Assembly: GCA_030141605.1 (NCBI GenBank)
Contig: JAQGDQ010000327.1
Location: forward strand, 1 to 64,000
Reading direction: 5' to 3'
DNA: 64,000 bases
From: Tubiluchus corallicola
Taxonomy: Eukaryota; Priapulida; Priapulimorpha; Priapulimorphida; Tubiluchidae
Below the pieces are notes generated by a model. That model ran no database searches, had not been told where the DNA came from, and saw only the letters and a list, made by a program, of their open reading frames with translations. How positions within the stretch are numbered: position 1 is the stretch's first letter; every line of letters starts with the position of its first letter. Position numbers and translations under genes: made by a program. This document shows, in pieces, positions 7,105-62,544 of the stretch.

Positions 7105-7248
<144 letters not shown>

Positions 7249-10560: not shown

Positions 10561-10564
10561 CACT

Positions 10565-17240: not shown

Positions 17241-17326
17241 AAAGCATATGCTAGCATTGAATGTTCATTTGTCTATTACGAAGTTATTCAAAAAGATTAA
17301 AAAATGTTATAGAAAAAAATTCTTAC
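17241..17326 (-). other. Start of the intron between kinase exons 2 and 3
   Basis: This short unique sequence lies between the inverted-repeat element and the donor site. The donor reads GTAAGAATTT on the minus strand at 17326 and below. Confidence 0.7.
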
Positions 17327-20138: not shown

Positions 20139-20382
20139 CTAAAAATAAAGCAACAAAATATTTTAGAAATTTTGGAAACTTTCTGCAAATTTGAAATCCA
20201 AATTGTTTGCCCATTAAAATCATTTGCTTTCTATTTTCTAAACTTTTGTCTTATTCATTAATCACAAATTAAGATGAAAACAACTTAAATAGTTTTAAAA
20301 ATTTTCAAATTTTTGTGTATCAGCAGACCTACCACGCTTTATAGATAAATATGTCCATAAATTATCGCAGTTTGATTCTTTT
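20139..20382 (-). other. Upstream intron of the kinase gene, AT-rich
   Basis: Noncoding sequence immediately upstream (minus strand) of the acceptor at 20139. Nothing else was recognised. Confidence 0.5.
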
Positions 20383-35005: not shown

Positions 35006-36660
35006 TTTTACAATGAATTTTTACAAATTCGTTAAACCCGCGACCGATTTTCTTCTAAAAACAGTGATCCTGCATTTTTTTCAATACAACTATACAGCAC
35101 TTATTAGACTCTTTTACTAAACAACAACAAATAAACACATAAACAATTGAAAATAAATGACCGACCAATAGAACTTATCAGTTTCTCCAGAACCCTAAAA
35201 GCGCTGATATCATCTATGATTTTTAACTGTCAACACAAATTGCCGGCAAAATAGTGAAAACTTCCAGCACGTTTTTTTTCATTTCATTGAGTTTAGTTTC
35301 ATGTCAATCACGCACACACGCACGCACGCAGAGAATTTTTGTTGTACATTCTAAGTTTACCAAAGAAAGTGAGAAATCTTTTGTTAATTGCTGTTTATTG
35401 AGTGCAGGTGATCGTTTTGGTGCATATACCAATGCTGAAAATTAAGCAGAAAATAATCAATTAATCAATGCATACAATTACCAAGGCGTAAAAACATTAC
35501 AAAATCCACATAATGAATTACTGAATTGTTTATGAGACCCGCGTCTCACTAAAACAATGGCTATTGCTGATAACAACGTGGTACTTATTTATTGCTTGCG
35601 TTTTGATGCAGAGACTTGCATCTATCGTCAGAGCACTTTCAGAAGCCAGCTGGAAACCCTATGTTTTTTGGTTGATATGCTGCATTAAAGCAAAACCGGA
35701 CCCACTCTTAAACTGTAGGTCAAAACAATCTACTTTAAAATATTGAAAACAAACATACTGTTTTTTTTTTAAAATTGATTTATGTCAAAAAATTATTACC
35801 ACACAAACACAATTTCGCGTTCACGCCACTAATTCTTCGCTGTTACATGCATTTCGCTGTTCTCTAGTTAGACGGGCACTAGCGCCTACATTTCGGAAAC
35901 GCGTTGCACAGAAAAGAGGTGTTGTCTCTCTCAGTTCAGATGTGTTAGTTTGTGACGAACTACGCAGGTTCGACAGCTTATGCGTGAGCACAGCGTTAAA
36001 TTTGAAAGTTGAATTTTTATCTTTAAACTTGCCTGGTTTTAGTACAACACACTGAATAATTTACAGTTGCACTGTACTGTCGCTTTCGCAAACACGTACA
36101 ACACGCTCGTGGAATATTTTTGCTGTTGACAATTATGTTAGTTTGTGATGTCATCAATAGTTGGGCTAGACCGCCATTAATTAAATTTTTTATGTGTTAT
36201 TTAATTAACCGAAAACGCTTGTGCAATATAAATTGAGTTAAAATGTATACTTTTTATCGGACTTGAAAATGGGGTAGTATATGAAAAATCATTCTAGCTC
36301 GCCTGTGAAAGTCCTGATTTTGATGCAAGTCTGCATCGAAACCTAAACAATGAAGAAATGCCATGATGTTAGCAGCATTAGCCATTGTGTTGGTTACAGT
36401 GCAGAATAAAAATTGAGTTACAAATATTCAGAAACACTACAAATGTCATTTGAGCAAAGAAGTTCTGTAAAAATGTGAAAAATGTAGCCTTCTACATGAG
36501 ATTCATGCAAAAACCATAACCACAGCAAACAGCCAGTACAATAGACGCAAAATTCACATGGTGAGAGAAAAAACACTGTACTAAATGTCGAAGAAATAAA
36601 ACACAAAATGCACACAATAATTGCATTTTGCAACTAAGAGGGAGACACAATATAGGAAAC
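35006..36660. other. Noncoding, nothing recognised
   Basis: Contains CGCACGCACG-type short repeats near 35310 and T/A runs. No gene is supported. Confidence 0.4.
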
Positions 36661-37053: not shown

Positions 37054-37916
37054 GAACTACAAGCAAGATTTTAACTTCCTTTACCAAAGCAGATGTAGAG
37101 ATACATATAGATGCTGAGGAAATCAGATGCTAATGATGAATAAAGATAAATGAGAAAATGGTAGATGTTCCAAACACCGGTTGTAGTTTTGTGCGTGTGT
37201 GTTATTTCTTTGACATTAAATGCATTCTTTCATCATGAGAATTTTGCTTCTATTACAGTGGCTGTTTGCAGTGGTTACGATGTTTCGCCTTATGTAGAAG
37301 TTAAAATTTTTCATGTTTTATGAGATCTCTCTGCTCATGTGTTAGTTCTACTTCTGTTCTTTGGAATTTTTTGTGCCTAGGTAATTTTAATATCGCGTGT
37401 CGTAAATGTACTAATTCTTTTTTGGCTTAAATTTCAACATAGAAAATGACAATTATACCAATAATCTGCACTCAGTAAATAGTCTTTTGAGTCATAGGAG
37501 CTGGCCCTTCTATGTATTATGTCCATTGATTTTGGTCGTCATTGTCTAATAAATATTGGGCGTATTTGTTATAATTATCCAACTTCTGTTGCGAAGCTTT
37601 TGTGAAACCAGCATGGCAAGTATATGGTGGTCATTAAAACAAACAATAAACAACGTAAAACAAAAATATCCATTTAGTAATAAAAATCGCGCATTTCATA
37701 GACCAGTGAGTTAGCAAAATCATAGAAGCTACAAACTTTCGCAGCATTTTGGACTAATAATTATAGTCTTACATTAAATTTTGTTGTCGCTTTAAAATGA
37801 TTTCTCAAATGAACCTAGCCATTGTAAGCTAAAGACTAGTATATTCATATAATAATTTTTTGTTAATAATAACAGAAAAATTATAACACCGCTACTATAT
37901 TTTAAAAATTACTTAC

Positions 37917-39954: not shown

Positions 39955-42900
39955 TCTATTTATAGATAATCTCGTGTATCTGATCAGAAGAGAACTACAA
40001 GCAACTTCATCACCTGACAACCTCAACCATCTGGGAAGAAGACGTCTGCAGACAACCTCAATCATATACAGAAGACATCTACAAGCAATCTAAAAGTATC
40101 TAGTCAGAGGGCGTCTGTATCCGACTCCCACTGATCTGTTAAGATCTACAAAAAATAGATCTAAATTATCTTCTCAGAAGACATGTACGGCCAAACTCAA
40201 GCATTTATTAGGAATATAGTTCTGGTCAGAAGAATTCTACACTCATTGGCAAGCCTCTGAATAGAGACATATGTAACATCGAACTTGGGTCGGGCGACTT
40301 ATGTCAAGATGGATTGCCGAACGGGTCTGTGACCTCAAATGTTAAAGAGCAGCAATATTTGCTTAACTTCTAAGGTGATTGCAAGCGCAGGAGGATCAGT
40401 CCTTCCTAACGTACAGAGTATGGGCCAATGGTGATTCAGTGTGAACTGAAAAAGTGAAGGCAACCGAGTATAAATAAGTGAAGTGACTGGCATAGGTTTA
40501 ACATTTTAATTTGCATGATCAATCAAAATCAGTAAACACAACTCTAAACTTACACAAGCACAGTAGGGAGCCTCTCATTTAATATCAATCACCTAGCGTT
40601 TCACATACGCGAGACGTGTCCCAGCTGGTTGGAATGACTTTGCTAACAACTGACCCGTCGGCAACGGCGATTGCATCAATGTTCCACTCATATGGCTGGC
40701 TCAGAGGAAGGAACTATCTTCGATGACGATCACCAAGACGCTTTTGACGACCTCCTCTTCAGATGAGTCAGGTATAAGACTTACAGAACGTATAGAAGTC
40801 TGCTCATGCCATTTTCGTTGGAAACTCTGCCATCGTGAGAGCATACACGTCTTAGTAAATGTCTCTCGCCAAACACCAGACATATTATTTGCATTCTGAT
40901 AACGACTGGGAGCGTGAATAATTCACTTAGCTAATTGCAAGTTACCAAGTTGATTACAAAAGTATCCAAAGCAATGTCCTGTCGGCCAATGCCTCGACCA
41001 AAACAAAATCAATAGGCCTTTTAGCTCAGTCGGCCATTCAACCAAAACTGTATCAGTTATCTCGTGGAACAACGGGCACCACTCAAGTCATACCTGTCGT
41101 GACCCTGTTAATCACAGCAGTACTATAGGTATAACATCATGATGGTCCAAAAGTTAACCTGTAATATTTTTTTGCTGAACTCACAATAGACGAAATCGCC
41201 AATTTATTAATACCTGGCTCAATACAATACATTTAGATATACCTAATAGTTCTTCCAAAAGCACGTAAACGTGTTATTACAGTTAAATGGTTATTCGTTT
41301 TAATCTGCTAAATACGAGCGTGACAACAAACACAGACAGCCTAATTAGCTTGTCAGAAGACATGAATGGCCAAACTCAAGCATATCTCGAAGGAAGAGCT
41401 CTATTGCCAATCTGATGTACCTGATCAGAAGAAATCTGTAGGCAACTCATGATGTGGTAAGATGACACAGATACAGGCAACTTAAACAATTTGGTAATAT
41501 GACGTTTCCAAGCAATCTAAAACATTTATTAATACCTCAAGGCTGAAGACATCTACATCCAATCCCAACCATCTGTTAAGATCTGCAGACAAACTGAAAC
41601 AACTAGACACCTTATGTATCTAGTTAGAGGGCATCTGCATCCAATCCCAATAATCTATAGACAAACAGAAACATCTAATAGGAACTCATCTAGACCAATC
41701 TCAAACTTCTGGACAGACGAAACCTAGAGCCAATGTCTAATCAGAAGACTTCTACAGGCTACGTTAAGGGAAAACCGAGTGATTGTGTAAACATTAGTTC
41801 AGAATACAGAATGCTCTAAAATACTAAAAACTACAATAGTTTTTTTTTAAATCAAAGCTTAGACTAAATAATAATTACCTTGGATACACAAATTTCGTAA
41901 CTTTGAATGCTACGCGAAGCTCAATGAATCTACTAAGATTGGCAGTGGCGGCTTTTTGCCATGTTCTCGTGGCTGATAAATGGAAGGCGGTACCGTGATA
42001 ACCATGATCATGAACTGCAGTGTTAGTTTCTAACGTCATATGATGTAGAGCCCATTTTCGTGACATCATACGTTTAAACAGTAACACTTACGCAAACGCG
42101 CTAGGGAGATGGCTACCAGTACACAAACTGTGGTGACGTAAGCAATAGCTCTGTTCGGTTGCAGTTAATTAACTTTCTAAGCTAATTATTCAAATATAAG
42201 AAACAATTGCTAACTTTTATAGGCAACAAAATGTATATTTTGGACACAAAATTAAAATGAGATTGAGTCTAAACAATCGACCGGTCCTTCTTTAAGTATC
42301 TGAACAGAGACACATGCAGACAGCCTCAAACATCTCCTAACACCTGACGTTACTAGTTAGAGGGCATCTGCATCCAATCCCAATAATCTCTTAAGATCTA
42401 TAGACAAACTGAAACATCTAGTAAGAGCTCATCTAGAGCTATCTCAAACATCTGGGGAAATGAAATCTACTGCCAGTCTCAAGTATCTGATCGGAAGACT
42501 TCTACAGGCAATGTTAAGTATCTGAATAGAGACATATATGGACATCCTCAACTTGCCATATATGGGTCAATGTCAAACAATTTAATTTAGCGTTCTATAA
42601 TTATTTGTTTTTGCAATTTTTCAAATATGCATTTCTTTAAAGTGCTTGAAATGAAGCCAGTCTTAGTCAAGTAACCTAAGCTTTAGTATTATACGCCACC
42701 TATCAATCACACTTGTTTTTTACACATAGTTAGATTTTCTGTTGCCGCCACGCTAATCATGCCGTTTGGTAATACGTGAATTACTTTATTTTGTTATGAT
42801 TTGACAGTCATTAGTCGTATTGTTAAGCCAAAATAGTCACCAGTAAATGTAAGTCGCTATCTACTTTAATAATTAGTTAATAATTTAAAATCGTCTGAAA

Positions 42901-43575
42901 TTGCTTCACGTCTCCTGAATCGTCAAGTAATAATTTGTGTTTCAGTCTTCTTAAATCTAATTTTTCATCTTTGTCTAAATAGCAAATAACCTTTAGCGAT
43001 CTATTTTCTGTTTTTAATAAATTTCGTGTCTATCGCACAGTTCAATGATGACTATTGCCGTTTCTTTGCCTGGACTCTGTGCTTCCACAATATTTATTGC
43101 CAAACTCGAGCATCTTGTAGAAAGGCTTTTATTGTCAATCTGTGGTACTTGAACAAAAGATAGCTACACGCAATTTCTCCATCTGATGAGACATCTCCTG
43201 GCATCCACAACCATCTTGTAAGAGAACGTCTGCAGACAACCTTAGCCATCTACAGAAGACGTCTACAAGCAATCTAGAACACCTACTAATTCCTCAAGTC
43301 TGAAGACACCTACATCCAATCCTAGTCGTATGTTAACATCTACAGAAAAACTTTAATATCTAATAAGAATTCATCTAGAGCTATACCAAACTTCTGGACA
43401 GATGAAATCTACTGAAAACCTCTAATGTCTAATCAGAAAACTTCTACAGGCAATGTTTAGCATCTGCATAAAGACATGTACATCTACATTCAATCCAAAT
43501 AATCTGCTAAGACCTACAAATAAACTGAAACATCTAGTCAGTATTCATCTAAAGCAATCTCAAACATCTGGACAC
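39955..43575 (-). repeat. Satellite array, left arm (opposite orientation), in four blocks
   Basis: Blocks at about 39960-40310, 41340-41770, 42290-42560 and 43080-43575 consist of degenerate ~35 bp monomers of the type CAGAAGACATCTACAGGCAA, then TCTCAAACATCTGG. This is the reverse complement of the monomer in the main array to the right. The blocks are separated by non-repetitive spacers (about 40310-41340, 41770-42290, 42560-43080) in which no gene was recognised. Copies here are more divergent from each other than those in the main array. A tRNA A-box-like TAGCTCAGTCGG occurs in the first spacer at 41022-41033 without a B box. Confidence 0.85.
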
Positions 43576-46500
43576 AAGAGACCATGTATGTAGAGTCTTA
43601 AAAGATTATTGGGATTTGTCATAGATGCCATAAAACTAGATATGTGAGGTGATGGGAGATGGGAGTAGATTTCAGCTATTCCGATAATTAAGATTGCCTG
43701 CAGAAGTACTCTAATTAGATACTTTGGCCTAACAGTAGATTTCATCTATTTACGTGTTCGAGATTGCCCTAGATGAGTTCTGAGTAGATGTTTCACTTTG
43801 CGTGTATCAATGTCGTCTTACCAGATGATGAAGTCCCTGCAGATTTCTTCTGCCAGGTAGCTCAGATTCGTAATCAAACTATCCCTACCAAATGCTTAAG
43901 TTTGGCCATACATCTCTTCTGACAAGGTAACTCAGGTCGTCTGCGTATGTCTCTATTCAAATGCATAACATTGAATGTAGAAGTCTTTTCATTCGATACT
44001 TGAGAATGGCAGTAGATTTCAGCTATTTCGATAATTAAGATTGCCTGCAGAAGTACTATAATTAGATACTTTGGCCAAACAGTAGATTTCATCTATTTAC
44101 GTGTTCGAGATTGCCCTAGATGAGTTCTGAGTAGATGTTTCACTTTGCCTGTATCAATGTCGTCTTACCTGATGATGAGGTCCCTGCAGATTTCTTCTGC
44201 CAGGTAGCTCAGATTCGCAATCAAACTCTCCCTACCAAATGCCTAAGTTTGGCCATACATCTCTTCTGACAAGGTAATTCAGGCCGTCTGCGTATGTCTC
44301 TATTCAAATGCATAACATTGCCTGTAGAAGTCTTTTCATTCGATACTTGAGAATGGCAGTAGTTTTCATCAGTCCATTGCTTGAGGATGATCCAGATGAG
44401 TTTTTGCATGATGTTTCGTTTCGTCTGCATATCATAGCAGCCGGTCAGGATTGGATGTAAGCGTCTTCTAACTCGAGGTATTAATATGTGTTTTAGATTG
44501 CGTGGAAATGTCATCTTACGAAACGGCTGAAGTTGCCCTTATCGATGTCGTCTTACCTGATGATGAGTAGCCTGTTGATTTCTTCTGATCATATTTCTCA
44601 GATTGACAATAAAACTCTTCGTACCAAATGTTTTAGTTTGGCCATACATGTCTCCTGGCATGCTAATTGAAGCTGTCTGTGTATGTTTCTATTCAGGTGC
44701 TTAACATTGCCTGTAGAAGTCTTCTCATTAGATACTTGAGAATGGCAGTAGATTTCAGCTATTTCGATAATTAAGATTGCCTGCAGAAGTACTCTAATTA
44801 GATACTTTGGCCAAACAGTAGATTTCATCTATTTACGTGTTCGAGATTGCCCTAGATGAGTTCTGAGTAGATGTTTCACTTTGCCTGTATCAATGTCGTC
44901 TTACCTGATGATGAGGTCCCTGCAGATTTCTTCTGCCAGGTAGCTCAGATTCGCAATCAAACTCTCCCTACCAAATGCCTAAGTTTGGCCATCTCTATTC
45001 AAATGCATAACATTGCCTGTAGAAGTCCTCTGGTTAGATACTTAAGAATGGTAGTACATTTCACCTATTCAGATGTTTGAGATTGTTCGAGATCAGTTCT
45101 TACTTGATGTTCCAGTTCGTATGTAGATCTTAGCAGATGACCGGGTTTGGATGTAAGCGTCTTTTAACTCGAGGTATTAATATATGTTTAGATTGCGTGG
45201 AAATGTCATCGTACGAAACGATTGAAGTTACGTATACCTACGCCGTTTTACCAGACGACGAGTAGCCTGCTGATTTCTCTGATCAGGTACTTCAGTTTGA
45301 CAATAAAACTCTTCGTACTAAATGCTTAAGTTTGACCATACATGTCTTCTCTTAAGCTAATTGAAGCTGTCTGTGTATATCTCTATTCAGATGCTTAACA
45401 TTGCCTGTGTGGAAATCTTCTGGTTAGATATTTGAGAATGGCAGTAGATTTTAGGTATTTCAGATGTTAGGAGATGTTTGAAGTTATCTGTATGTCTTTA
45501 TTCCGATATCTAAGAATGCCTGCAGAAGTCCTCTATTTAGATACTTTGGGCTTTTAGTAGATTTTGTCAGTTCAGATACTTGAAATTGCTCTAGCTGATT
45601 TCTGACTAGATGTTTCATTTTGTCTGCACATATGAGTGGGATTCGATGTAGATGTCTTCAGAATTGGGAATTAGTAAATGTTTTGGATTGCTTGGAAATG
45701 TCACCTCACCAAACGGTTGAAATTGGCTGTATCAATGTCGTCTTGCGAAATGATGAGATTCCTGCAGATTTATTCTGTTCAAACGCTCAGATTGCAATGA
45801 AACTCTTCCTGCCAAATGCTCGAGTATGGCTATTTGTCTTCTGACGAGCTAATTGAGGCTTGTCTGTGTCACCACTATTCACGTATTAAAATTTATTGTA
45901 GGTACCCGAGAATGGCAGTAAATTTCATCTGTCCATTGTTTGTGGTTGTTCGAGACGAGTTCTTACTAGATGTTTCAGTTCGCACGTAGATCTTAGCAGA
46001 CGATATGGATTGCATGCAGATGCTTTCTAACTCCAAGTGTTAATATCTGTTTTACAGAGCTTGAAAATGTCATCTTACCAAACGGTTGATGTTGCTTTAT
46101 CTAAGTGATATTACCAGATGATGAGTTCCCTGCAGATTTCTTGTGCTCAGGCATCTCAGACAATCGATAGAACTCTTCTTACCAGATGCTGAGCTTGGCC
46201 ATAAACGTCTTCTGACAAGCTAATTGAGGCCGTCTGCGTATGTTTCTATTCAAATGTATAACATTGCCTGTAGAAGTCCTCTGGTTAGATACTTAAGAAT
46301 GGTAGTACATTTCACCTATTCAGATGTTTGAGATTGTTCGAGATTAGTTCTTACTTGATGTTCCAGTTCGTATGTAGATCTTAGCAGATGATCGGGTTTG
46401 GATGTAAGCGTCTTTTAACTCGAGGTGTTAATATATGTTTAGATTGCGTGGAAATGTCATCGTACGAAACGATTGAAGTTACCTATGCCTACGCCGTTTT

Positions 46501-48389
46501 ACCAGACGACGAGTAGTCTGCTGATTTCTTCTGATCATATTTCTCAGATTGACAATAAAACTCTTCGTACCAAATGTTTTAGTTTGGCCATACATGTCTC
46601 CTGGCATGCTAATTGAAGCTGTCTGTGTATGTTTCTATTCAGGTGCTTAACATTGCCTGTAGAAGTCTTCTCATTAGATACTTGAGAATGGCAGTAGATT
46701 TCAGCTATTTCGATAATTAAGATTGCCTGCAGAAGTACTCTAATTAGATACTTTGGCCAAACAGTAGATTTCATCTATTTACGTGTTCGAGATTGCCCTA
46801 GATGAGTTCTGAGTAGATGTTTCACTTTGCCTGTATCAATGTCGTCTTACCTGATGATGAGGTCCCTGCAGATTTCTTCTGCCAGGTAGCTCAGATTCGC
46901 AATCAAACTCTCCCTACCAAATGCTTAAATTTGGCCATACATTCTTTTGACAAGGTAATTCAGGTCGTCTGCGTATGTCTCTATTCAAATGCATAACATT
47001 GCCTGTAGAAGTCTTTTCATTCGATACTTGAGAATGGCAGTAGTTTTCATCAATCCATTGCTTGAGGATGATCCAGATGAGTTTTTGCTTGATGTTTCAT
47101 TTTGTCTGCAGATCATAGCAGACGATCAGGATTGGATGTAGATGTCTTCTAACTCGAGGTATTAATTTATGTTTTAGATCTCTTGGAAATGTCATCTTAC
47201 CAAACGGCTGAAGTTGCCCTTATCGATGTCGTCTTACCTGATGAAGAGTAGCCTGTTGATTTCTTCTGATCATATATCTCAGATTGACAATAAAACTCTT
47301 CGTACCAAATGTTTTAGTTTGGCCATATATGTCTCCTGGCATGCTAATTGAAGCTGTCTGTGTATGTTTCTATTCAGATGCTTAACATTGCCTGTAGAAG
47401 TCTTCTCATTAGATACTTGAGAATGGCAGTAGATTTCAGCTATTCCGATAATTAAGAATGCCTGCAGAAGTACTCTAATTAGATACTTTGGCCTAACAGT
47501 AGAATTCATCTATTTACGTGTTCGAGATTGTCCTAATGAGTTCTGAGTAGATGTTTCACTTTGCGTGTATCAATGTCGTCTTACCAGATGATGAGGTCCC
47601 TGCAGGCAGATGGCTTCTAACTCCAACTGTTAATATCTGTTTTAGAGAGCTTGAAAATTTCATCTTACCAAACGGTTGATGTTGCTTTATCTAAGCGATC
47701 TTACCAGATGATGAGTTCCCTGCAGATTTCTTGTGCTCAGGCATCTCAGACTATCGATAGAACTCTTCTTACCAGATTCTGAGCTTGGCCATAAACGTCT
47801 GCGTATGTCTCTATTCAAATGCAAAACATTGCCTGTAGAAGTCCTCTGGTTAGATACTTAAGAATGGTAGTACATTTCACCTATTCAGATGTTTGAGATT
47901 GTTCGAGATCAGTTCTTGCTTGATGTTCCAGTTCGTATGTAGATCTTAGCAGATGATCGGGTTTGGATGTAAGCGTCTTTTAACTCGAGGTGTTAATATA
48001 TGTTTAGATTGCGTGGAAATGTCATCGTACGAAACGATTGAAGTTACCTATGCCTACGCCGTTTTACCAGACGACGAGTAGTCTGCTGATTTCTTCTGAT
48101 CAGGTACTTCAGTTTGACAATAAAACTCTTCGTACCAAATGTTTTAGTTTGGCCATACATGTCTCCTGGCATGCTAATTGAAGCTGTCTGTGTATGTTTC
48201 TATTCAGGTGCTTAACATTGCCTGTAGAAGTCTTCTCATTAGATACTTTGGCCAAACAGTAGATTTCATCTATTTACGTGTTCGAGATTGCCCTAGATGA
48301 GTTCTGAGTAGATGTTTCACTTTGCGTGTATCAATGTCGTCTTACCAGATGATGAGGTCCCTGCAGGCAGATGGCTTCTAACTCCAACT

Positions 48390-51300
48390 GTTAATATCTG
48401 TTTTAGAGAGCTTGAAAATGTCATCTTACCAAACGGTTGATGTTGCTTTATCTAAGCGATCTTACCAGATGATGAGCTCCCTGCAGATTTCTTGTGCTCA
48501 GGCATCTCAGACTGTCGATAGAACTCTTCTTACCAGATTCTGAGCTTGGCCATAAACGTCTGCGTATGTCTCTATTCAAATGCAAAACATCGCCTGTAGA
48601 AGTCCTCTGGTTAGATACTTAAGAATGGTAGTACATTTCACCTATTCAGATGTTTGAGATTGTTCGAGATCAGTTCTTACTTGATGTTCCAGTTCGTATG
48701 TAGTTCTTAGCAGATGACCGGGTTTGGATGTAAGCGTCTTTTAACTCGAGGTATTAATATATGTTTAGATTGCGTGGAAATGTCATCGTACGAAACGATT
48801 GAAGTTACGTATACCTACGCCGTTTTACCAGACGACGAGTAGCCTGCTGATTTCTCTGATCAGGTACTTCAGTTTGACAATAAACTCTTCGTACTAAATG
48901 CTTAAGTTTGACCATGCATGTCTTCTGTTAAGCTAATTGAAGCTGTCTGTGTATATTTCTATTCTGATGCTTAACATTGCCTGTGTGGAAATCTTCTGGT
49001 TAGATATTTGAGAATGGCAGTAGATTTTAGGTATTTCAGATGTTAGGAGATGTTTGAAGTTATCTGTATGTCTTTATTCCGATATCTAAGAATGCCTAAA
49101 GAAGTCCTCTATTTAGATACTTTGGCCTTTTAGTAGATTTTGTCAGATCAGATACTTGAAATTGCTCTAGCTGATTTCTGACTAGATGTTTCATTTTGTC
49201 TGCAGATCTTAACATATGAGTGGGATTGGATGTAGATGTCTTCAGAATTGGGGAATTAGTAAATGTTTTGGATTGCTTGGAAATGTCATCTTACCAAACT
49301 GTTGAAATTGCCTGTATCAATGTCGTCTTACCAGATGATGAGTTTCCTGCAGATTTATTCTGTTCAAGTACATGAGATTCGCAATGAAACTCTTCCTACC
49401 AAATGCTCGAGTATGGCCATTTATGTCTTCTGACGAGCTAATTGAGGCTTGTCTGTGTCACCACTATTCACGTATTAAAATTTGTTGTAGATACTCGAGA
49501 ATGGCAGTAAATTTCATCTGTCCATTGTTTGTGGTTGTTCGAGACGAGTTCTTATTAGACGTAGACGTTTCAGTTCGGACGTAGATCTTAGCAGACGATC
49601 TGGATTGGATGCAGATGGCTTCTAACTCCAAGTGTTAATATCTGTTTTAGAGAGCTTGAAAATGTCATCTTACCAAACGGTTGATGTTGCTTTATCTAAG
49701 CGATCTTACCAGATGATGAGTTCCCTGCAGATTTCTTGTGCTCAGGCATCTCAGACTGTCGATAGAACTCTTCTTACCAGATTCTGAGCTTGGCCATAAA
49801 CGTCTGCGTATGTCTCTATTCAAATGCAAAACATCGCCTGTAGAAGTCCTCTGGTTAGATACTTAAGAATGGTAGTACATTTCACCTATTCAGATGTTTG
49901 AGATTGTTCGAGATCAGTTCTTACTTGATGTTCCAGTTCGTATGTAGATCTTAGCAGATGATCGGGTTCGGATGTAAGCGTCTTTTAACTCGAGGTGTTA
50001 ATATATGTTTAGATTGCGTGGAAATGTCATCGTACGAAACGATTGAAGTTACCTATGCCTACGCCGTTTTACCAGACGACGAGTAGTCTGCTGATTTCTC
50101 TGATCAGGTACTTCAGTTTGAACACTTCGTACTAAATGCTTAAGTTTGACCATACATGTCTTCTCTTAAGCTAATTGAAGCTGTCTGTGTATATCTCTAT
50201 TCAAATGCATAACATTGCCTGTAGAAGTCCTCTGGTCAGATACTTAAGAATGGTAGTACATTTCACCTATTCAGATGTTTGAGATTGTTCGAGATCAGTT
50301 CTTGCTTGATGTTCCAGTTCGTATGTAGATCTTAGCAGATGATCGGGTTTGGATGTAAGCGTCTTTTAACTCGAGGTGTTAATATATGTTTAGATTGTGT
50401 GGAAATGTCATCGTACGAAACGATTGAAGTTACCTATGCCTACGCCGTTTTACCAGACGACGAGTAGTCTGCTGATTTCTCTGATCAGGTACTTCAGTTT
50501 GACAATAGAACTCTTCGTACTAAATGCTTAAGTTTGACCATACATGTCTTCTGTTAAGCTAATTGAAGCTGTCTGTGTATATCTCTATTCAGATGGTTAA
50601 CATTGACTGTGTGGAAATCTTCTGGTTAGATATTTTAGAACGGCAGTAGATTTCAGGTATTTCAGGTGTTAGGAGATGTTTGAAGTTATCTGTATGTCTT
50701 TATTCCGATATCTAAGAATGCCTGCAGAAGTCCTCTATTTAGATACTTTGGGCTTTTAGTAGATTTTGTCAGTTCAGATACTTGAAATTGCTCTAGCTGA
50801 TTTCTGACTAGATGTTTCATTTTGTCTGCAGATCTTAACATATGAGTGCGATTCGATGTAGATGTCTTCAGAATTGGGAATTGGTAAATGTTTTGGATTG
50901 CTTGGAAATGTCACCTCACCAAACGGTTGAAATTGCCTGTATAAATGTCGTCTTACCAAATGATGAGTTTCCTGCAGATTTATTCTGTTCAAGTACCTGA
51001 GATTCGCAATGAAACTATACCTACCAAATGCTCGAGTATGGCCATTTATGTCTTCTGACGAGCTAATTGAGGCTTGTCTGTGTCACCACTATTCACGTAT
51101 TAAAATTTATTGTACATACTCGAGAATGGCAGTAAATTTCATCTGTCCATTGTTTGTGGTTGTTCGAGACGAGTTCTTACTAGATGTTTCAGTTCGCACG
51201 TAGATCTTAGCAGACGATATGGATTGGATGCAGATGCTTTCTAACTCCAAGTGTTAATATCTGTTTTAGAGAGCTTGAAAATGTGATCTTACCAAACGGT

Positions 51301-51850
51301 TGATGTTGCTTTATCTAAGTGATATTACCAGATGATGAGTTCTCTGCAGATTTCTTGTGCTCAGGCATCTCAGACAATCGATAGAACTCTTCTTACCAGA
51401 TGCTGAGCTTGGCCATAAACGTCTTCTGACAAGCTAATTGAGGCCGTCTGCGTATGTTTCTATTCAAATGCATAACATTTTCTGTAGAAGTCCTCTGGTT
51501 AGATACTTAAGAATGGTAGTACATTTCACCTATTCAGATGTTTGAGATTGTTCGAGATTAGTTCTTACTTGATGTTCCAGTTCGTATGTAGATCTTAGCA
51601 GATGATCGGGTTCGGATGTAAGCGTCTTTTGACTCGAGGTATTAATATATGTTTAGATTGCGTGGAAATGTCATCGTACGAAACGATTGAAGTTACCTAT
51701 GCCTACGCCGTTTTACCAGACGACGAGTAGTCTGCTGATTTCTCTGATCAGGTACTTCAGTTTGACAATAGAACTCTTCGTACTAAATGCTTAAGTTTGG
51801 CCATACATGTCTTCTGTTAAGCTAATTGAAGCTGTCTGTGTATATCTCTA
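48390..51850 (+). repeat. Higher-order duplicate A (~3.4 kb)
   Basis: Nearly identical to 53600-57060 with an offset of about 5.21-5.22 kb. Shared private variants include the shortened TTTGAACACTTCGTAC (50117, 55337) and CATAACATTTTCTGTAGAAG (51468, 56680). The two copies part company just after about 51850 and 57060. Confidence 0.8.
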
Positions 51851-53599
51851 TTCAAATGCAAAACATCGCCTGTAGAAGTCCTCTGGTTAGATACTTAAGA
51901 ATGGTAGTACATTTCACATATTCAGATGTTTGAGATTGTTCGAGATCAGTTCTTACTTGATGTTCCAGTTCGTATGTAGATCTTAGCAGATGATCGGGTT
52001 CGGATGTAAGCGTCTTTTAACTCGAGGTGTTAATATATGTTTAGATTGCGTGGAAATGTCATCGTACGAAAAGATTGAAGTTACCTATGCCTACGCCGTT
52101 TTACCAGACGACGAGTAATCTGCTGATTTCTCTGATAAATTGCTTGTATCAATGTCGTCTTGCGAAATGATGAGATACCTGCAGATTTATTCTGTTCAAA
52201 CGCTCAGATTCGCAATGAAACTCTTCCTGCCAAATGCTCGAGTATGGCCATTTATGTCTTCTGACGAGCTAATTGAACGTATTAAAATTTATTGTACATA
52301 CTCGAGAATGGCAGTAAATTTCATCTGTCCATTTTTTGTGGTTGTTCGAGACGAGTTCTTACTAGATGTTTCAGTTCGCACGTAGATCTTAGCAGACGAT
52401 CTGGATTGGATGCAGATGCTTTCTAACTACAAGTGTTAATATCTGTTTTAGAGAGCTTGAAAATGTCATCTTACCAAACGGTTGATGTTGCTTTATCTAA
52501 GCGATCTTACCAGATGATGAGTTCCCTGCAGATTTCTTGTGTTCAGGCATCTCAGACTATCGATAGAACTCTTCTTACCAGATGCTGAGCTTGGCCATAA
52601 ACGCCTGCGTATGTCTCTATTCAAATGCAAAACATTGCCTGTAGAAGTCCTCTGGTTAGATACTTAAGAATGGTAGTACATTTCACCTATTCAGATGTTT
52701 GAGATTTTTCGAGATCAGTTCTTCCTTGATGTTCCAGTAAATGTTTCGGATTGTTTGGAAATGTCACCTTACCAAAAGGTTGAAATCGCCTGTATAAATG
52801 TCGTCTTACCAAATGATGAGATTCCTGCAGATTTATTCTGTTTAAGCAGCTCACATTCGCAATGAAACTCTTCCTGCCAAATACTTAAGTACAGCCCTAC
52901 ATTTCTTTTGACATGCTAGTTAAGGTTGTCTGCGTATATGTCTCTGTTCAGATACTTGACGTTGCCTGTAGAAGTCTTCTCATTAGATATTTGAGAATGG
53001 CAGTATGTTTCAGATATGTGTGGTGTTAGGAGATGTTTGAAGTTGTCTGTATATGTCTCTATTCTGATAATTAAGAATGTCTGCAGAAATCTTCTAATTA
53101 GATACTTTTGGCTAACAGTAGATTTTATCTGTTCAGATGCTTGAAATTGCTCTAACTGATTTCTGACTAGAAGTTTCATTTTGTCTGCAGATCTTAACAT
53201 ATGAGTGGGATTGGATGTAGATGTCTTCAGAATTGGGGAATTAGTAAATGTTTTGGATTGCTTGGAAATGTCATCTTACCAAACTGTTGAAATTGCCTGT
53301 GCCAATGTCGTCTTACCAGATGATGAGTTTCCTGCAGATTTATTCTGTTCAAGCACCTGAGATTCGCAATGAAACTATTCCTACCAAATGCTCGAGTATG
53401 GCCATTTATGTCTTCTGACGAGCTAATTGAGGCTTGTCTGTGTCACCACTATTCACGTATTAAAATTTGTTGTAGATACTCGAGAATGGCAGTAAATTTC
53501 ATCTGTCCATTGTTTGTGGTTGTTCGAGACGAGTTCTTACTAGATGTTTCAGTTCGCACGTAGATCTTAGCAGACGATCTGGATTGGATGCAGATGGCT

Positions 53600-56500
53600 T
53601 CTAACTCCAAGTGTTAATATCTGTTTTAGAGAGCTTGAAAATGTCATCTTACCAAACGGTTGATGTTGCTTTATCTAAGCGATCTTACCAGATGATGAGT
53701 TCCCTGCAGATTTCTTGTGCTCAGGCATCTCAGACTATCGATAGAACTCTTCTTACCAGATTCTGAGCTTGGCCATAAACGTCTGCGTATGTCTCTATTC
53801 AAATGCAAAACATTGCCTGTAGAAGTCGTCTGGTTAGATACTTAAGAATGGTAGTACATTTCACCTATTCAGATGTTTGAGATTGTTCGAGATCAGTTCT
53901 TACTTGATGTTCCAGTTCGTATGTAGATCTTAGCAGATGACCGGGTTTGGATGTAAGCGTCTTTTAACTCGAGGTATTAATATATGTTTAGATTGCGTGG
54001 AAATGTCATCGTACGAAACGATTGAAGTTACGTATACCTACGCCGTTTTACCAGACGACGAGTAGCCTGCTGATTTCTCTGATCAGGTACTTCAGTTTGA
54101 CAATAAAACTCTTCGTACTAAATGCTTAAGTTTGACCATGCATGTCTTCTGTTAAGCTAATTGAAGCTGTCTGTGTATATTTCTATTCTGATGCTTAACA
54201 TTGCCTGTGCGGAAATCTTCTGGTTAGATATTTGAGAATGGCAGTAGATTTTAGGTATTTCAGATGTTAGGAGATGTTTGAAGTTATCTGTATGTCTTTA
54301 TTCCGATATCTAAGAATGCCTAAAGAAGTCCTCTATTTAGATACTTTGGCCTTTTAGTAGATTTTGTCAGATCAGATACTTGAAATTGCTCTAGCTGATT
54401 TCTGACTAGATGTTTCATTTTGTCTGCAGATCTTAACATATGAGTGGGATTGGATATAGATGTCTTCAGAATTGGGGAATTAGTAAATGTTTTGGATTGC
54501 TTGGAAATGTCATCTTACCAAACGGTTGAATTTGCCTGTATCAATGTCGTCCTACCAGATGATGAGTTTCCTGCAGATTTATTCTGTTCAAGTACATGAG
54601 ATTCGCAATGAAACTCTTCCTACCAAATGCTCGAGTATGGCCATTTATGTCTTCTGACGAGCTAATTGAGGCTTGTCTGTGTCACCACTATTCACGTATT
54701 AAAATTTGTTGTAGATACTCGAGAATGGCAGTAAATTTCATCTGTCCATTGTTTGTGGTTGTTCGAGACGAGTTCTTACTAGATGTTTCAGTTCGCACGT
54801 AGATCTTAGCAGACGATCTGGATTGGATGCAGATGGCTTCTAACTCCAAGTGTTAATATCTGTTTTAGAGAGCTTGAAAATGTCATCTTACCAAACGGTT
54901 GATGTTGCTTTATCTAAGCGATCTTACCAGATGATGAGCTCCCTGCAGATTTCTTGTGCTCAGGCATCTCAGACTGTCGATAGAACTCTTCTTACCAGAT
55001 TCTGAGCTTGGCCATAAACGTCTGCGTATGTCTCTATTCAAATGCAAAACATCGCCTGTAGAAGTCCTCTGGTTAGATACTTAAGAATGGTAGTACATTT
55101 CACCTATTCAGATGTTTGAGATTGTTCGAGATCAGTTCTTACTTGATGTTCCAGTTCGTATGTAGATCTTAGCAGATGATCGGGTTCGGATGTAAGCGTC
55201 TTTTAACTCGAGGTGTTAATATATGTTTAGATTGCGTGGAAATGTCATCGTACGAAACGATTGAAGTTACCTATGCCTACGCCGTTTTACCAGACGACGA
55301 GTAGTCTGCTGATTTCTCTGATCAGGTACTTCAGTTTGAACACTTCGTACTAAATGCTTAAGTTTGACCATACATGTCTTCTCTTAAGCTAATTGAAGCT
55401 GTCTGTGTATATCTCTATTCAAATGCATAACATTGCCTGTAGAAGTCCTCTGGTCAGATACTTAAGAATGGTAGTACATTTCACCTATTCAGATGTTTGA
55501 GATTGTTCGAGATCAGTTCTTGCTTGATGTTCCAGTTCGTATGTAGATCTTAGCAGATGATCGGGTTTGGATGTAAGCGTCTTTTAACTCGAGGTGTTAA
55601 TATATGTTTAGATTGTGTGGAAATGTCATCGTACGAAACGATTGAAGTTACCTATGCCTACGCCGTTTTACCAGACGACGAGTAGTCTGCTGATTTCTCT
55701 GATCAGGTACTTCAGTTTGACAATAGAACTCTTCGTACTAAATGCTTAAGTTTGACCATACATGTCTTCTGTTAAGCTAATTGAAGCTGTCTGTGTATAT
55801 CTCTATTCAGATGGTTAACATTGACTGTGTGGAAATCTTCTGGTTAGATATTTTAGAACGGCAGTAGATTTCAGGTATTTCAGGTGTTAGGAGATGTTTG
55901 AAGTTATCTGTATGTCTTTATTCCGATATCTAAGAATGCCTGCAGAAGTCCTCTATTTAGATACTTTGGGCTTTTAGTAGATTTTGTCAGTTCAGATACT
56001 TGAAATTGCTCTAGCTGATTTCTGACTAGATGTTTCATTTTGTCTGCACATATGAGTGGGATTCGATGTAGATGTCTTCAGAATTGGGAATTAGTAAATG
56101 TTTTGGATTGCTTGGAAATGTCACCTCACCAAACGGTTGAAATTGGCTGTATCAATGTCGTCTTACGAAATGATGAGATTCCTGCAGATTTATTCGGTTC
56201 AAGACGCTCAGATTCGCAATGAAACTCTTCCTACCAAATGCTCGAGTATGGCCATTTATGTCTTCTGACGAGCTAATTGAGGCTTGTCTGTGTCACCACT
56301 ATTCACGTATTAAAATTTATTGTAGGTACTCGAGAATGGCAGTAAATTTCATCTGTCCATTGTTTGTGGTTGTTCGAGACGAGTTCTTACTAGATGTTTC
56401 AGTTCGCACGTAGATCTTAGCAGACGATATGGATTGGATGCAGATGCTTTCTAACTCCAAGTGTTAATATCTGTTTTAGAGAGCTTGAAAATGTCATCTT

Positions 56501-57060
56501 ACCAAACGGTTGATGTTGCTTTATCTAAGTGATATTACCAGATGATGAGTTCCCTGCAGATTTCTTGTGCTCAGGCATCTCAGACAATCGATAGAACTCT
56601 TCTTACCAGATGCTGAGCTTGGCCATAAACGTCTTCTGACAAGCTAATTGAGGCCGTCTGCGTATGTTTCTATTCAAATGCATAACATTTTCTGTAGAAG
56701 TCCTCTGGTTAGATACTTAAGAATGGTAGTACATTTCACCTATTCAGATGTTTGAGATTGTTCGAGATTAGTTCTTACTTGATGTTCCAGTTCGTATGTA
56801 GATCTTAGCAGATGATCGGGTTTGGATGTAAGCGTCTTTTAACTCGAGGTGTTAATATATGTTTAGATTGCGTGGAAATGTCATCGTACGAAACGATTGA
56901 AGTTACCTATGCCTACGCCGTTTTACCAGACGACGAGTAGTCTGCTGATTTCTCTGATCAGGTACTTCAGTTTGACAATAGAACTCTTCGTACTAAATGC
57001 TTAAGTTTGACCATACATGTCTTCTGTTAAGCTAATTGAAGCTGTCTGTGTATATCTCTA
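53600..57060 (+). repeat. Higher-order duplicate B (~3.4 kb)
   Basis: Partner of 48390-51850. One clear difference lies near 56040, where a stretch present at 50828-50839 (GATCTTAACATA) is shortened. Confidence 0.8.
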
Positions 57061-58869
57061 TTCAGATGCTTAACATTGCCTGTGTGGAAATCTTCTGGTT
57101 AGATATTTGAGAATGGCAGTAGATTTTAGGTATTTCAGATGTTAGGAGATGTTTGAAGTTATCTGTATGTCTTTATTCCGATATCTAAGAATGCCTGCAG
57201 AAGTCCTCTATTTAGATACTTTGGGCTTTTAGTAGATTTTGTCAGATCAGATACTTGAAATTGCTCTGGCTGATTTCTGACTAGATGTTTCATTTTGTCT
57301 GCACATATGAGTGGGATTCGATGTAGATGTCTTCAGAATTGGGAATTAGTAAATGTTTTTGATTGCTTGGAAATGTCACCTTACCAAACGGTTGAAATTG
57401 CCTGTATCAATGTCGTCTTACGAAATGATGAGATTCCTGCAGATTTATTCTGTTCAAACGCTCAGATTCGCAATGAAACTCTTCCTGCCAAATGCTCGAG
57501 TATGGCTATTTATGTCTTCTGACGAGCTAATTGAGGCTTGTCTGTGTCACCACTATTCACGTATTAAAATTTATTGTAGGTACTCGAGAATGGCAGTAAA
57601 TTTCATCTGTCCATTGTTTGTGGTTGTTCGAGACGAGTTCTTACTAGATGTTTCAGTTCGCACGTAGATCTTAGCAGACGATATGGATTGCATGCAGATG
57701 CTTTCTAACTCCAAGTGTTAATATCTGTTTTACAGAGCTTGAAAATGTCATCTTACCAAACGGTTGATGTTGCTTTATCTAAGTGATATTACCAGATGAT
57801 GAGTTCCCTGCAGATTTCTTGTGCTCAGGCATCTCAGACAATCGATAGAACTCTTCTTACCAGATGCTGAGCTTGGCCATAAACGTCTTCTGACAAGCTA
57901 ATTGAGGCCGTCTGCGTATGTTTCTATTCAAATGTATAACATTGCCTGTAGAAGTCCTCTGGTTAGATACTTAAGAATGGTAGTACATTTCACCTATTCA
58001 GATGTTTGAGATTGTTCGAGATTAGTTCTTACTTGATGTTCCAGTTCGTATGTAGATCTTAGCAGATGATCGGGTTTGGATGTAAGCGTCTTTTAACTCG
58101 AGGTGTTAATATATGTTTAGATTGCGTGGAAATGTCATCGTACGAAACGATTGAAGTTACCTATGCCTACGCCGTTTTACCAGACGACGAGTAGTCTGCT
58201 GATTTCTCTGATCAGGTACTTCAGTTTGACAATAGAACTCTTCGTACTAAATGCTTAAGTTTGACCATACATGTCTTCTGTTAAGCTAATTGAAGCTGTC
58301 TGTGTATATCTCTATTCAGATGGTTAACATTGACTGTGTGGAAATCTTCTGGTTAGATATTTTAGAACGGCAGTAGATTTCAGGTATTTCAGGTGTTAGG
58401 AGATGTTTGAAGTTATCTGTATGTCTTTATTCCGATATCTAAGAATGCCTGCAGAAGTCCTCTATTTAGATACTTTGGGCTTTTAGTAGATTTTGTCAGA
58501 TCAGATACTTGAAATTGCTCTGGCTGATTTCTGACTAGATGTTTCATTTTGTCTGCAGATCTTAACATATGAGTGGGATTCGATGTAGATGTCTTCAGAA
58601 TTGGGGAATTAGTAAATGTTTTGGATTGCTTGGAAATGTCACCTTACCAAACGGTTGAAATTGCCTGTATCAATGTCGTCTTACGAAATGATGAGATTCC
58701 TGCAGATTTATTCTGTTCAAGCAGCTCAGATTCGCAATGAAACTCTTCCTGCCAAATACTTAAGTATACCCCTACTTGTCTTTCGACAAGCTAGTTAAGG
58801 TTGTCTGCGTATGTCTCTGTTCAGATACTTGACATTGCCTGTAGAAGTCTTCTCATTTGATACTTGAGA

Positions 58870-60505
58870 ATCGCACTACATCGTCACATTCACTTTCGAA
58901 AACATGCTTTCATTGTCAAGCTGATAATCCTATTCTAGCGATGTGTTTCAAAGCATTTGGAAAGAAAGTGCCTATTTCTCAAGCCTCATCTCAGGGTTCT
59001 TCACCATCAATTAGGACACAGTTTCAAGCTTCATTTACTCCAGGTTTACCTTGGGTACAAGCTTCTTCAATTAGTAACTGTGTGAGTGAAGCAGCCGCAT
59101 TGATGTCAGTGACACCATCAGTGTTTTTCCAGACAGCTAGTACATGGCTTTTTAATCAAGAAACTGGTCAATCAATTCCTGTAAGGGTATTTTTTGATTC
59201 AGCTAGCTGTCGCAGCTGCATATCACAGCGTATCACGACTTGGCCATGCAGGACCAAAACATTTGCTTGCTCAGTTGAGAAAAGATTACTGGATTCCACA
59301 AGGACGTGCAGCAGTTCGGCGACTTGTTAAACAATGCTTGAAATGCACAAGATGGCATGGAAGTCACTTTGCCGTACCAAAGGAACCACCGCTTCCAAGT
59401 GTTAATGAAGGTCCACCATTTAGTACTACTGGAATTGATTCCGGGTCCACTGATACATGGGTCCACCGTACATCAAGACACGAGATGGAAACTTGTTCAA
59501 AGTTTGGGTTTGCCTCTATACATGTGCTGCAATTAGAGCAATCCATCTAGAAGTAGTGGAAGATCTCACTGCACACAGTTTTCTGATGAGTCTGCGTCGA
59601 TTTATATCACGTCGCGGTAAACCAAATCAAATTATCTCAGACAATGCAAAGACATTTAAGTTGGTAGCATCGACTTTAGACAAAGTTTGGGAATCAGCGA
59701 TTTACAGTGATGAAGTTCAGAACTACACTGCCAAAGAAGGGATTCGTTGGAATTTCATAGTTGAGCTTGCACCATGATTTGGCGGCTTTTATGAGCGTCT
59801 GATCCAATCTGTGAAGAAGTCTTTACGAAAAGCTTTAGGCTAAGCTCATCTTAATCTCGTACAGCTGCAAACAATTTTCACAGAAGTTGAAGGGATTTTA
59901 AATTCAAGGCTATTGGTTTATGTTGACACTGATGTCAGCTCCGGAGACTTCATCAGCCCTGCACATTTTCTAGGTAATCCTAAATTGAGTACTCCTTCTA
60001 TCCTTCCGGAACCCGATCCTACCTTTCCCGTGAAATCAGAATCAGCTGAAAGAGTTGTAGCTTTGTGGAAGAGTTCCGAGCATCAACTTAATCTCTTTTG
60101 GACTTCATGGAGGAATGATTATCTCCTCAGCTTAAGAGAAAGGTGGGCCAACAACGAAACCGTGGTTCAGTATCATCAGTACCTGTGGTCGGACAAACGG
60201 TTTTGGTTCGTGTTGGCATGCAACCAGGAGCACAATGGAAGCTTGGAAGAGTGTCCAATCACATCCCGAGCGCTGATGGAACTATTGCCAAATCGTCGGC
60301 ATATCAATCGTTCAAACTATTGCACTCATTGGAGACTGCAGCAAATTCTGGATCAAATGGTGTTAATTGCCAGCTGGGGTCCAAAATGATGATGATGACG
60401 CTAATACCAAGCAACCTGATTCAGATGCTCCACGACCACATCTACAAGCTGCAGTTGAAGCGCAACAAAGGATCAAAGGAATTCTGGCTGGCGGGAGTGT
60501 CGTGA
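58870..60505 (+). mobile_element. BEL/Pao retrotransposon remnant, protease fused to integrase by deletion
   Basis: From the left, a gag zinc-knuckle-like CFHCQADNP lies near 58898. The start of the A17-type aspartic protease follows near 59125-59225 (FFQTASTWLFNQETG, VRVFFDSASCRS, where DSG is expected, so the Gly is Ala). Immediately after, in another frame, comes the integrase zinc domain (LGHAGPKHLLAQLRKDYWIP, QCLKCTRWHG). The integrase core follows with TGID near 59428, ISDNAKTF near 59634 and TEVEGILNSR near 59881, giving the D, D, E residues. Last is a DUF5641-like tail (VGQTVLVRVG, WKLGRVS) near 60160-60260. Reverse transcriptase and RNase H are missing. Stops (for example TGA in AP*FGGF at 59776) and frameshifts make it non-functional. 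Confidence 0.88.
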
Positions 60506-61019
60506 ACTGATTCACGAGTTTGTTTATGAACTTTATAAACTTTAGCAACATTAGAACTTTACAGTAAGCTACACTACAGTGAATCATTTTCTCACCTGAC
60601 TGGTTTCTGTTTTGAGGCATTTCCCAAGGTTAACCAGTTTCAACTGATTTGAGCTCTTACAGTTTTAATCTAGCAGTCACAGCGCGGTGTACAGAAAAGA
60701 CAGTCAATAATAAAGTGTTTGTGCCACTAAAGGAGTTTGGTTTTTGTTGCTACATATATTGACAAAAGCCTTTTTCACAAATTCCTGTTTTCTTTCATTT
60801 TAAATCTCTCGCGAAACTGTTCCGACTGCGCTATTACTTTGCGTCACAAACACACACAACGTAAGCCTAACTGGTACACGCACAAGCTGAATTTAAATTC
60901 TCTTCATGAGAGAGTACTTAGAGTGTTCGAGGTGTGTACACTGTTGTACAATACTTCCCAGAGTTTTACGCATAACTTTTATCGATTTTCTGATTGTCTA
61001 CAACCATTTGGCGGCTATT
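60506..61019 (+). other. Possible 3' LTR region of the BEL/Pao remnant
   Basis: A poly(A)-like AATAAA followed by GTGTTTGTGCC is at about 60709-60725. No second LTR is available to define the ends. The rest, including a frame at 60737-61054, has no recognised domain. Confidence 0.3.
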
Positions 61020-61870
61020 ATAGGTTTTACATGTCAAATGTAGACCAGCGTTAACTCAAATGTAGATTTAGGTAATTCAAATGTGTTAACAATGGTTTTC
61101 AACAAATCTTAAGCGCTTTTGGTAAATCAAATGTAGACACACGTCAAGTCAAATGTGACATTGGTATCTCAAATGTGGATAGGTAGTAAAGTTTAAGCAT
61201 GTTAAATTTAATCTTCTTTAATTTCAATTTAATAATTGCTCTTAAGTTAAAATAACAACGTTATAGGTTCATTATATTCTGCACACTTTACATACCATTG
61301 GAACTGTTAAAGAAAACAATACATTCTTAAAATAAACAATGTTTCTTGAGAGAAACTAATTCATTAATGCAGTGCTAATGCATTACTTAAAAAACTAACT
61401 GGTGATTCACTGTTCATTGGGAATTGGGAACCGATTTATTCTTTTCTGTCGACATTTTTTGTAAAACGTTGACAAATAATATGTAGAATTGGTGTATATA
61501 TTAATGATTGTATAATTGTTAACTCATTTATGTACAACACTTTTAAGTGTTCTTATCAAATAAACATTTTCTCTATATTTGAAAAATGTATTAACGTCCA
61601 TACAAATAGTTGCAAATTAATTAAATATAATAAAAATTGATGCTGCTGATAGCACCATGACCATAAAAAATAATTTTAATTTGGTTTTATGTTTTTGTAA
61701 TTTGCACTTAAATGAGTTAATTACCGATTTATTCAAAGTACCGCATCTACATTTGACTTACCTAAGTCACATTTGAGTTACCAAAACACATTCGAAATTC
61801 CTATGTCTACATTTGACTTACCTAAGTCACATTTGAACTTTCCTGTGTCAACATTTGATGTGTAAAACGT
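61020..61870. mobile_element. Foldback/MITE-like element with iterated terminal repeats
   Basis: The left end (61024-61190) contains about six copies of TCAAATGTAGAC-like motifs (TCAAATGT at 61037, 61058, 61078, 61127, 61147 and 61171 approximately). The right end (61744-61868) has the same motif in reverse complement (ACATTTGACTTACCTAAGTC twice, CACATTTGA, ACATTTGATG). The outermost ends, GTTTTACATGTCAAATG at left and CATTTGATGTGTAAAAC at right, form a terminal inverted repeat with two mismatches. The interior of about 550 bp is AT-rich and noncoding. Target-site duplication is unclear. Confidence 0.75.
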
Positions 61871-62544
61871 ATAATTAAAGACTATCGCTTCATGGGATGT
61901 CCACGAAGATATAGTAATAGCATCGCGTCTGTGATTCACACAGTAACATCAATTGAACTTCGTTTTCAGTTTCAACCTAAGAAGGGCGTTCTTAGAACGA
62001 CAACCGCTGCATGTGCAAAGTTTTATGCATTAACCTTTTATATTAAGTTATTGTTAGATTTGCACTGAGGATTGCAAAACATGTTATTGTAGGTTCTCTT
62101 TACCACAGCTACATTTTTTAAAACCATTAAGCTTAAAGTTTTAAGCGTGGAAGCACCTCTTGAATTTGATAGCGATGTATTACTAACGTTTCAACGAATA
62201 TTTACTTTTTAAGGTTTCTAATTTTTTCATAAATCATTCTACTGACAAAACTGCGCTGAGCAGGCAGCATTTCAACATTATTTTTACTTGTCGGCCTGCG
62301 TTCTGTGTTCATTGTAGTGTAAGTATCAGTGCTACTATAATTATCAAGTACTACAATCTTATGAATAATTTGTACAAATTTCATGATTTTTATCAAAACA
62401 CGAAAAAACTCAAAATGAGGCTAGCTTTCATTCACACACTGACTGGTGGTTTTCACTCTTTTTGCAGAAGCTTAAAATTGTTTTTTACAAAATGCAATAG
62501 CATACAGTAAACGTATCACTCGTTTAATTACTACGCAAAGCGTA
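61871..62544. other. Noncoding, nothing recognised
   Basis: AT-rich. The minus-strand frame at 62396-62202 has no recognised domain. Confidence 0.35.

Follow-up and report, generated by a model that had tools for sequence, protein, structure and literature searches.

An array of 35-bp satellite monomers with a diverged margin in opposite orientation in the genome of Tubiluchus corallicola

Organization of the array

The first 64,000 bases of contig JAQGDQ010000327.1 (here C692; 268,146 bp) of the priapulid Tubiluchus corallicola (assembly GCA_030141605.1; 343.5 Mb in 2,344 contigs), a stretch of eukaryotic DNA termed the window in what follows, contain a single array belonging to a non-coding satellite family that occurs genome-wide and has 35-bp monomers. 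The repeats span positions 39,958 to 58,874; as far as 43,581 they lie on the minus strand, and from 43,585 onward they lie on the plus strand. The 18-base core of the monomer, TTGCCTGTAGAAGTCTTC, is matched 41 times in the window at up to three mismatches, against 0.05 matches expected; all seven matches left of 43.6 kb lie on the minus strand, and all 34 to the right of it on the plus strand. Among periods of 33-36 bp, a cyclic monomer profile trained on the right arm was fitted best by far by 35 bp, with periods of 69, 70, 104 and 105 scoring a little to clearly above 35, as expected from higher-order structure. Applied to the full window in both orientations, the profile marked array sequence on the minus strand only in four blocks, B1 to B4 (Table 1), which we obtained by joining nine profile segments separated by 13 bp or less; its only plus-strand tract extends from 43,647 to 58,874, with gaps of at most 34 bp; two random 64-kb sequences, scanned on one strand each, yielded no segments. 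Ahead of the profile-marked plus tract, 43,585-43,661 is already plus-oriented array (76.6% identity by blastn to 42,331-42,406 inverted), which places the switch at 43,581/43,585 with no spacer between the arms.

An earlier note on this sequence had described a monomer of about 35 bp, in two orientations, filling some 19 kb and switching near 43.6 kb. The monomer and its two orientations are confirmed by core matches, period fit and profile map, and the inverted homology that a dot-plot was expected to reveal between left blocks and right arm is present as 216 blastn pairs, the best of them 282 bp at 84.8%. The switch is likewise abrupt, but its limits are corrected from 43,575 and 43,640 to the positions given here; the span is 18.9 kb, but the repeats cover only about 16.8 kb of it, the left array DNA totaling 1,505 bp and its three spacers 2,119 bp.

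Right of the switch, monomers follow head to tail for 15.3 kb on one strand and are organized in higher-order units of ~388 bp (11 monomers) and ~1.24-1.25 kb. Self-similarity peaks at 35, ~388 and 1,239-1,254 bp, and monomer identity is 53% between neighbors, 62% at lag 11 and 63% at lag 36 (15 lags tried); that is, higher-order units are more alike than adjacent monomers, and strings of monomer labels contain recurring runs of identical types. Among ungapped matches within this arm, filtered at 90% identity, 34 exceed 500 bp, at 94.9-99.8% identity and lengths up to 1,269 bp; gapped matches longer than 800 bp range from 72 to 97% identity, and exact repeats reach 1,109 bp. We read this pattern as suggesting continuing homogenization, and the earlier note's view of a homogenized right arm agrees with both the long matches and the tile scores given below. 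The arm's true length is the feature that an assembly error would most readily affect. Its longest open frame, of 119 codons, compares with a mean of 124 and a maximum of 153 in 30 Markov shuffles, and we found neither an Rfam match at gathering score nor a tRNA. A structured RNA within a single higher-order unit was considered and rejected (z of -0.4 on one strand and +0.8 on the other; one unit tried).

The CpG observed/expected ratio of the long arm is 0.76, compared with 0.23-0.50 in 15 other measured segments of the family. A ratio of 0.30 in the left blocks had raised the idea of methylation-driven decay there; this was rejected, the left blocks falling among those 15 segments and the core being the exception, and CpG-site substitutions run in both directions.

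The left blocks match one another at 73-78% identity (local matches of at least 100 bp) and the long arm at 70-85% among the best matches listed, while B1 matches the long arm only in stretches under 60 bp. Their divergence and low tile scores uphold the earlier suggestion that they are older than the right arm. They had also been described as four spaced blocks; four there are on the profile map, but they are pieces of one array stretch. Whether blocks continue across the spacers in phase with the higher-order unit was assessed by two measures against 250 random joins. The B4 to B3 join was equaled by 3 of these (5 by the second measure), the B3 to B2 join by 22 (9) and the B2 to B1 join by 22 (8); the commonest gaps at the joins were, in turn, 17 bp (4 of 12 best sites), -4 or -5 bp (6 of 12) and -3 bp (7 of 12), the remaining best sites having different gaps or none. 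The blocks thus keep register across all three spacers, and the left side is a single 1.5-kb stretch of array cut by three later insertions.

Of the three spacers, SpB is flanked on both sides by CTTAA, a 5-bp duplication that contains TTAA (plus-strand TTAAG at 41,764-41,768 and 42,292-42,296), and has imperfect terminal inverted repeats whose score was reached by none of 2000 random pairs. These features are those of a transposon that inserts at TTAA, and SpB resembles a miniature inverted-repeat transposable element (MITE); both piggyBac and Kolobok target TTAA. Further SpB copies were not found by blastn in 231 kb (the window plus the fetched loci). SpC is flanked on both sides by TGGCAA (plus-strand TTGCCA at 42,553-42,558 and 43,097-43,102). 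Clear inverted ends were not found for SpC, nor clear ends of any kind for SpA, and no similarity was found among the three spacers.

Table 1. Coordinates of the array, its parts and its right-hand neighbor in the window
Feature	Position	Strand	Basis
B1, outermost array block	39958..40275	-	profile; least similar to long arm
Spacer SpA, insertion in register, 3-bp overlap	40276..41331	-	register test; ends not clear
B2, inverted diverged array block	41332..41768	-	profile; 282 bp at 84.8% to long arm
Spacer SpB, MITE-like insertion	41769..42291	-	CTTAA duplication; terminal inverted repeats, imperfect
B3, inverted diverged array block	42292..42551	-	profile, block comparisons
Spacer SpC, insertion in array	42552..43091	-	register test, flanking TGGCAA
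B4, inverted diverged array block	43092..43581	-	profile, block comparisons
Orientation switch, minus to plus, abrupt	43581..43585	.	profile, blastn, 31-mer uniqueness
Degenerate first 90 bp of long arm	43585..43674	+	best match elsewhere in arm 0.21 of maximum
Long homogenized arm	43585..58874	+	35-bp monomers, higher-order units, large and apparently recent internal duplications
Right flank, presumed 3' part of broken BEL/Pao-like retroelement	58875..60503	+	integrase domain matches

Other arrays of the family and their orientation switches

Across the 343.5-Mb assembly the core has 385 matches at no more than one mismatch (166 forward, 219 reverse) and the reversed core pattern has none, which shows the family to be genome-wide. 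The core pattern was not matched in a collection of viral contigs; four single exact 18-mer matches in bacterial genome records were taken as chance. Further arrays were chosen among the matches listed (exact only), and parts of nine more contigs were mapped, giving ten arrays with that of the window; the family thus occurs as multiple arrays with array-specific variants. The mapped parts of C2138, C1866, C984, C2097, C2098 and the small C562 contain no switch. C1740 has one, between a long minus arm reaching 15,789 with interruptions and a short plus arm at 15,978-18,451, as does C1741, where a long plus arm to 6,942 meets a short minus arm at 6,954-8,108. C1451 has three, its long minus arm to 651,349 being followed by plus to 652,469, minus to 655,905 and plus to 656,770.

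Including that of the window, six switches therefore occur in four of the ten arrays, in both geometries, and flipped margins are present at three arrays besides that of the window. Segments are flipped at 4 of 9 flank-bounded edges (those adjoining other DNA within the fetched sequence, the 1.4-kb C562 piece being left out), no switch is more than 5.4 kb from an edge, and none falls inside the nine long arms (116 kb spanned). No blastn match spans two switches in windows of 400-500 bp on each side. An exact palindrome occurs at none of the six, and at every one the six best inverted matches scatter (six listed of 12-119 per switch). The lack of a shared match, together with the non-palindromic switch of the window, fits separate events.

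Two further observations concern the arrays themselves. In listed core-match spacings, C1787 mirrors C2138 from 1198358 onwards and looks, on that basis, like a duplicate (alternative haplotype) of the C2138 end. In the subfamily of C1866, C2097 and C2098, runs of monomers alternate with recurring gaps of ~80, 177, 191 and 324 bp that the profile does not recognize.

To measure divergence, segments were cut into 90-bp tiles, each tile was scored by its best match elsewhere in its own segment, and the median was taken, with 30 sampled tiles per long arm and with long arms trimmed of worn outer parts (C1740 taken as 1-13,562; C2138 from 1,203,583). All nine long arms gave medians of 0.98-1.00. 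Scores of the shorter segments were compared with those of 40 chunks of long arms of the same length, counting chunks that scored as low. Medians of the flipped segments were 0.37 in the window and 0.38 in C1740 (no chunk as low in either case), 0.42 for the first plus segment of C1451 (1 of 40), 0.41 in C1741 (3 of 40) and 0.31 for the last plus segment of C1451 (4 of 40). Flipped segments are thus diverged in five of five cases, two of the five being weakly tested. Among five same-strand edges compared, those at the window's right and in C984 and C2097 keep their uniformity nearly up to the flank, and the long arms of C1741 and C1451 are not worn at the first switch.

Origin of the flipped margin

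A palindromic duplication at the window's switch was tried and rejected: arms of 320 bp score 74, compared with a mean of 44.7 and a maximum of 182 in 60 random placements. A single inverted match does lie near the center of this switch, 16 bp off. Since the switch is no palindrome and the outer ends of the arms are unmatched (see below), neither a centered inverted duplication nor a foldback element fits. The switch is best explained, though without proof, by an inversion breakpoint, one of the possibilities listed in the earlier note, which we place at 43,583. If the long arm was simply inverted, the right end of the core (58,874) should formerly have adjoined the start of B4. Among 31 places resembling that right end, a B4-like start follows exactly 6 bp on in 14 and within -10 to 15 bp in 15, as compared with 4.6% of random positions. 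In line with such a former junction, wear in the long arm is greatest where the arm begins at the switch (0.21 of maximum), whereas the right end has been well preserved (0.84, against an arm median of 1.0). Telling against it, the place most like the right end precedes a B4-like start only at 121 bp, and the join is matched by 5 of 200 random joins on a fraction measure but by 91 of 200 on a score measure. Because the measures disagree, the exact inversion is not proved, and these comparisons are only suggestive of a core whose right end once joined B4.

We propose that unequal exchange among copies of the same orientation would enlarge the core (43,585-58,874) and keep it uniform, and that the left margin (39,958-43,581) is probably an older remnant of the same array, turned by an inversion. 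Opposite in orientation, the flipped margin would drop out of exchange with the core; thus excluded, it would drift, diverge and collect the three insertions. That margin segments of a growing satellite were inverted, lost to homogenization, decayed and became laden with transposons is the reading we favor, with a probability of roughly 0.8. A broader reading, in which margin inversion is a recurrent step in this genome that ends homogenization, excluding the turned segment from exchange and setting off its decay, and flipped segments are fossils of earlier array forms, is suggested by the divergence of all five flipped segments and the lack of switches inside nine long arms, and seems to us doubtful.

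Several observations weigh against the proposed order. The unflipped minus segment of C1451 at 652,487-655,905, between two flipped ones, is itself diverged (0.69; 0 of 40 chunks as low), as is the isolated unflipped C562 piece (0.44; 1 of 40); the same-strand margins of C1866 and, in part, C2138 are worn. Diverged margins, then, are not always flipped, and flipping is not needed for decay. Moreover, at C1740 wear also affects the long arm where it meets the switch, and the first 90 bp of the window's core are of the old type, so that decay may have come first. At two C1451 switches there is also partial inverted similarity (the sides of the second are 82% alike over 640 bp, with a center 162 bp off, and those of the last 74% alike over 207 bp, with a center 25 bp off), and an old inverted duplication is possible there. 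A margin that diverged first and was inverted later, orientation being irrelevant to its decay, or a flipped piece that arose by inverted duplication, would account for the old-type sequence that borders the switch to left and right, in the window as at C1740, for the worn same-strand margins and for these C1451 segments. It sits less easily with the long arms of C1741 and C1451, homogenized close to the first switch, with the divergence of every flipped segment, weak as two of those tests are, and with three same-strand edges uniform up to the flank; we give this alternative somewhat less than an even chance.

The remaining alternatives are far less credible. An assembly error, by which two satellite pieces were joined in the wrong orientation, might be suspected because arrays run to contig ends in 7 of the 10 array-bearing contigs read and because the core contains such long exact repeats. 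The switch, however, sits in diverged sequence that offers little to confuse an assembler, all 174 of the 31-mers within 100 bp of it are unique in the 231 kb, no N occurs within 500 bp of it, and three further loci carry switches (at C1741 the 31-mers are less unique, 116 of 182); an error of this kind is very improbable. The least probable of all is a foldback-type transposon with both terminal inverted repeats built of tandem monomers. Inverted arms containing internal tandem repeats are indeed found in foldback elements such as Galileo and Tetris, the latter known to seed satellites according to PMC4079207, but the shared ends, target duplication and mobile unit of such elements were not found here. 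Of 2,129 other placements, 1,425 gave a match at least as good as that between the outermost 150 bp of the two arms. The outer ends share no direct repeat of at least 6 bp (a duplication that was short or had decayed would escape), the arms lack symmetry about the switch and are very unequal in length (1.5 and 15.3 kb), and the other five switches, in ten arrays examined, differ in sequence and geometry. The foldback-type element put forward in the earlier note is accordingly not borne out.

It is quite improbable, too, that the opposed arms are kept for folding, as a chromatin hairpin or as a hairpin RNA feeding small RNAs. The RNA of 43,090-44,080, across the switch, is predicted to fold at -269 kcal/mol, better than all 20 shuffles (mean -215; z -7.4), a strength expected from the inverted homology. 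The long hairpin RNA suggested earlier is a predicted potential only: the longest perfect complementary run between the arms is 25 bp and the best arm-to-arm matches listed reach 70-85%, and the array as a source of hairpin RNA is not evidenced. A precedent exists in the satellite macro-dyads of Tribolium, which share kb-scale subarrays in opposite orientation with the array described here. According to PMC13081366, that system shows strong conservation of the inversion sites and a tendency of the arms toward symmetry; the six switch sites here are all different and not common to loci, and the arms are far from symmetrical (1.5 and 15.3 kb in the window, 2.5 and at least 15.8 kb in C1740, 1.2 and at least 6.9 kb in C1741). 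Five of nine flank-bounded edges, furthermore, have no flip. We take the arrangement to be a by-product of array turnover and found no evidence of a cellular function.

Surroundings of the array and relation to known systems

Adjoining the array on its right are matches to the zinc-binding domain of integrase (Integrase_H2C2, E 5e-11) and to its core domain (rve, 2.6e-5, below its own cut-off), presumably from the broken BEL/Pao-like retroelement of Table 1. Beside it, a stretch at ~60,503-60,751 resembles a long terminal repeat by eye; a second copy was not found in the window. A small foldback- or MITE-like element at 61017-61875 has inverted arms of ~20-bp tandem repeats around ~560 bp, and it is to this element, not to the large array, that foldback anatomy belongs. 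To the left of the array lie an inverted pair, possibly MITE-like, at 36451-36605 and 37196-37337 (72% over 156 bp), and, at 15150-17230, C/A-rich repeats in direct blocks (73% over 792 bp); relatives of these occur near 73 kb of C692 (74-83%) and next to the array of C1866 (77-88%). On the minus strand, 12076-12477 is an exon of a protein kinase gene (Pkinase, E 3.7e-10) and 18548-20188, with no Pfam match, is by eye a candidate exon of a protein kinase gene; both resemble, we presume, NUAK kinase.

Among described systems, human tandem arrays provide close parallels. According to PMC9549924, inversions and transposon insertions in human centromeric arrays are few where the arrays are homogeneous and many where they are divergent, and the relic layers of alpha-satellite described there resemble the present array in having a homogeneous core, diverged margins, and inversions and insertions concentrated in the margin. 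Unlike those margins, the array here is much smaller and built of a 35-bp monomer, and a link to the kinetochore is not implied. Inversion within an array also occurs in human tandem arrays treated in PMC2588610, and hsat4, treated there too, has a 35-bp repeat; the likeness to hsat4 is one of unit length.

The flipped-margin array is a further case of this known pattern of array aging and does not argue for a new mobile element. It represents a compact, end-to-end case of satellite arrays that age at their margins, with inversions and transposons gathering where homogenization has stopped. The presence of this pattern in several arrays of one family in one genome makes the question of whether flipping is cause or effect testable by comparison of strains.

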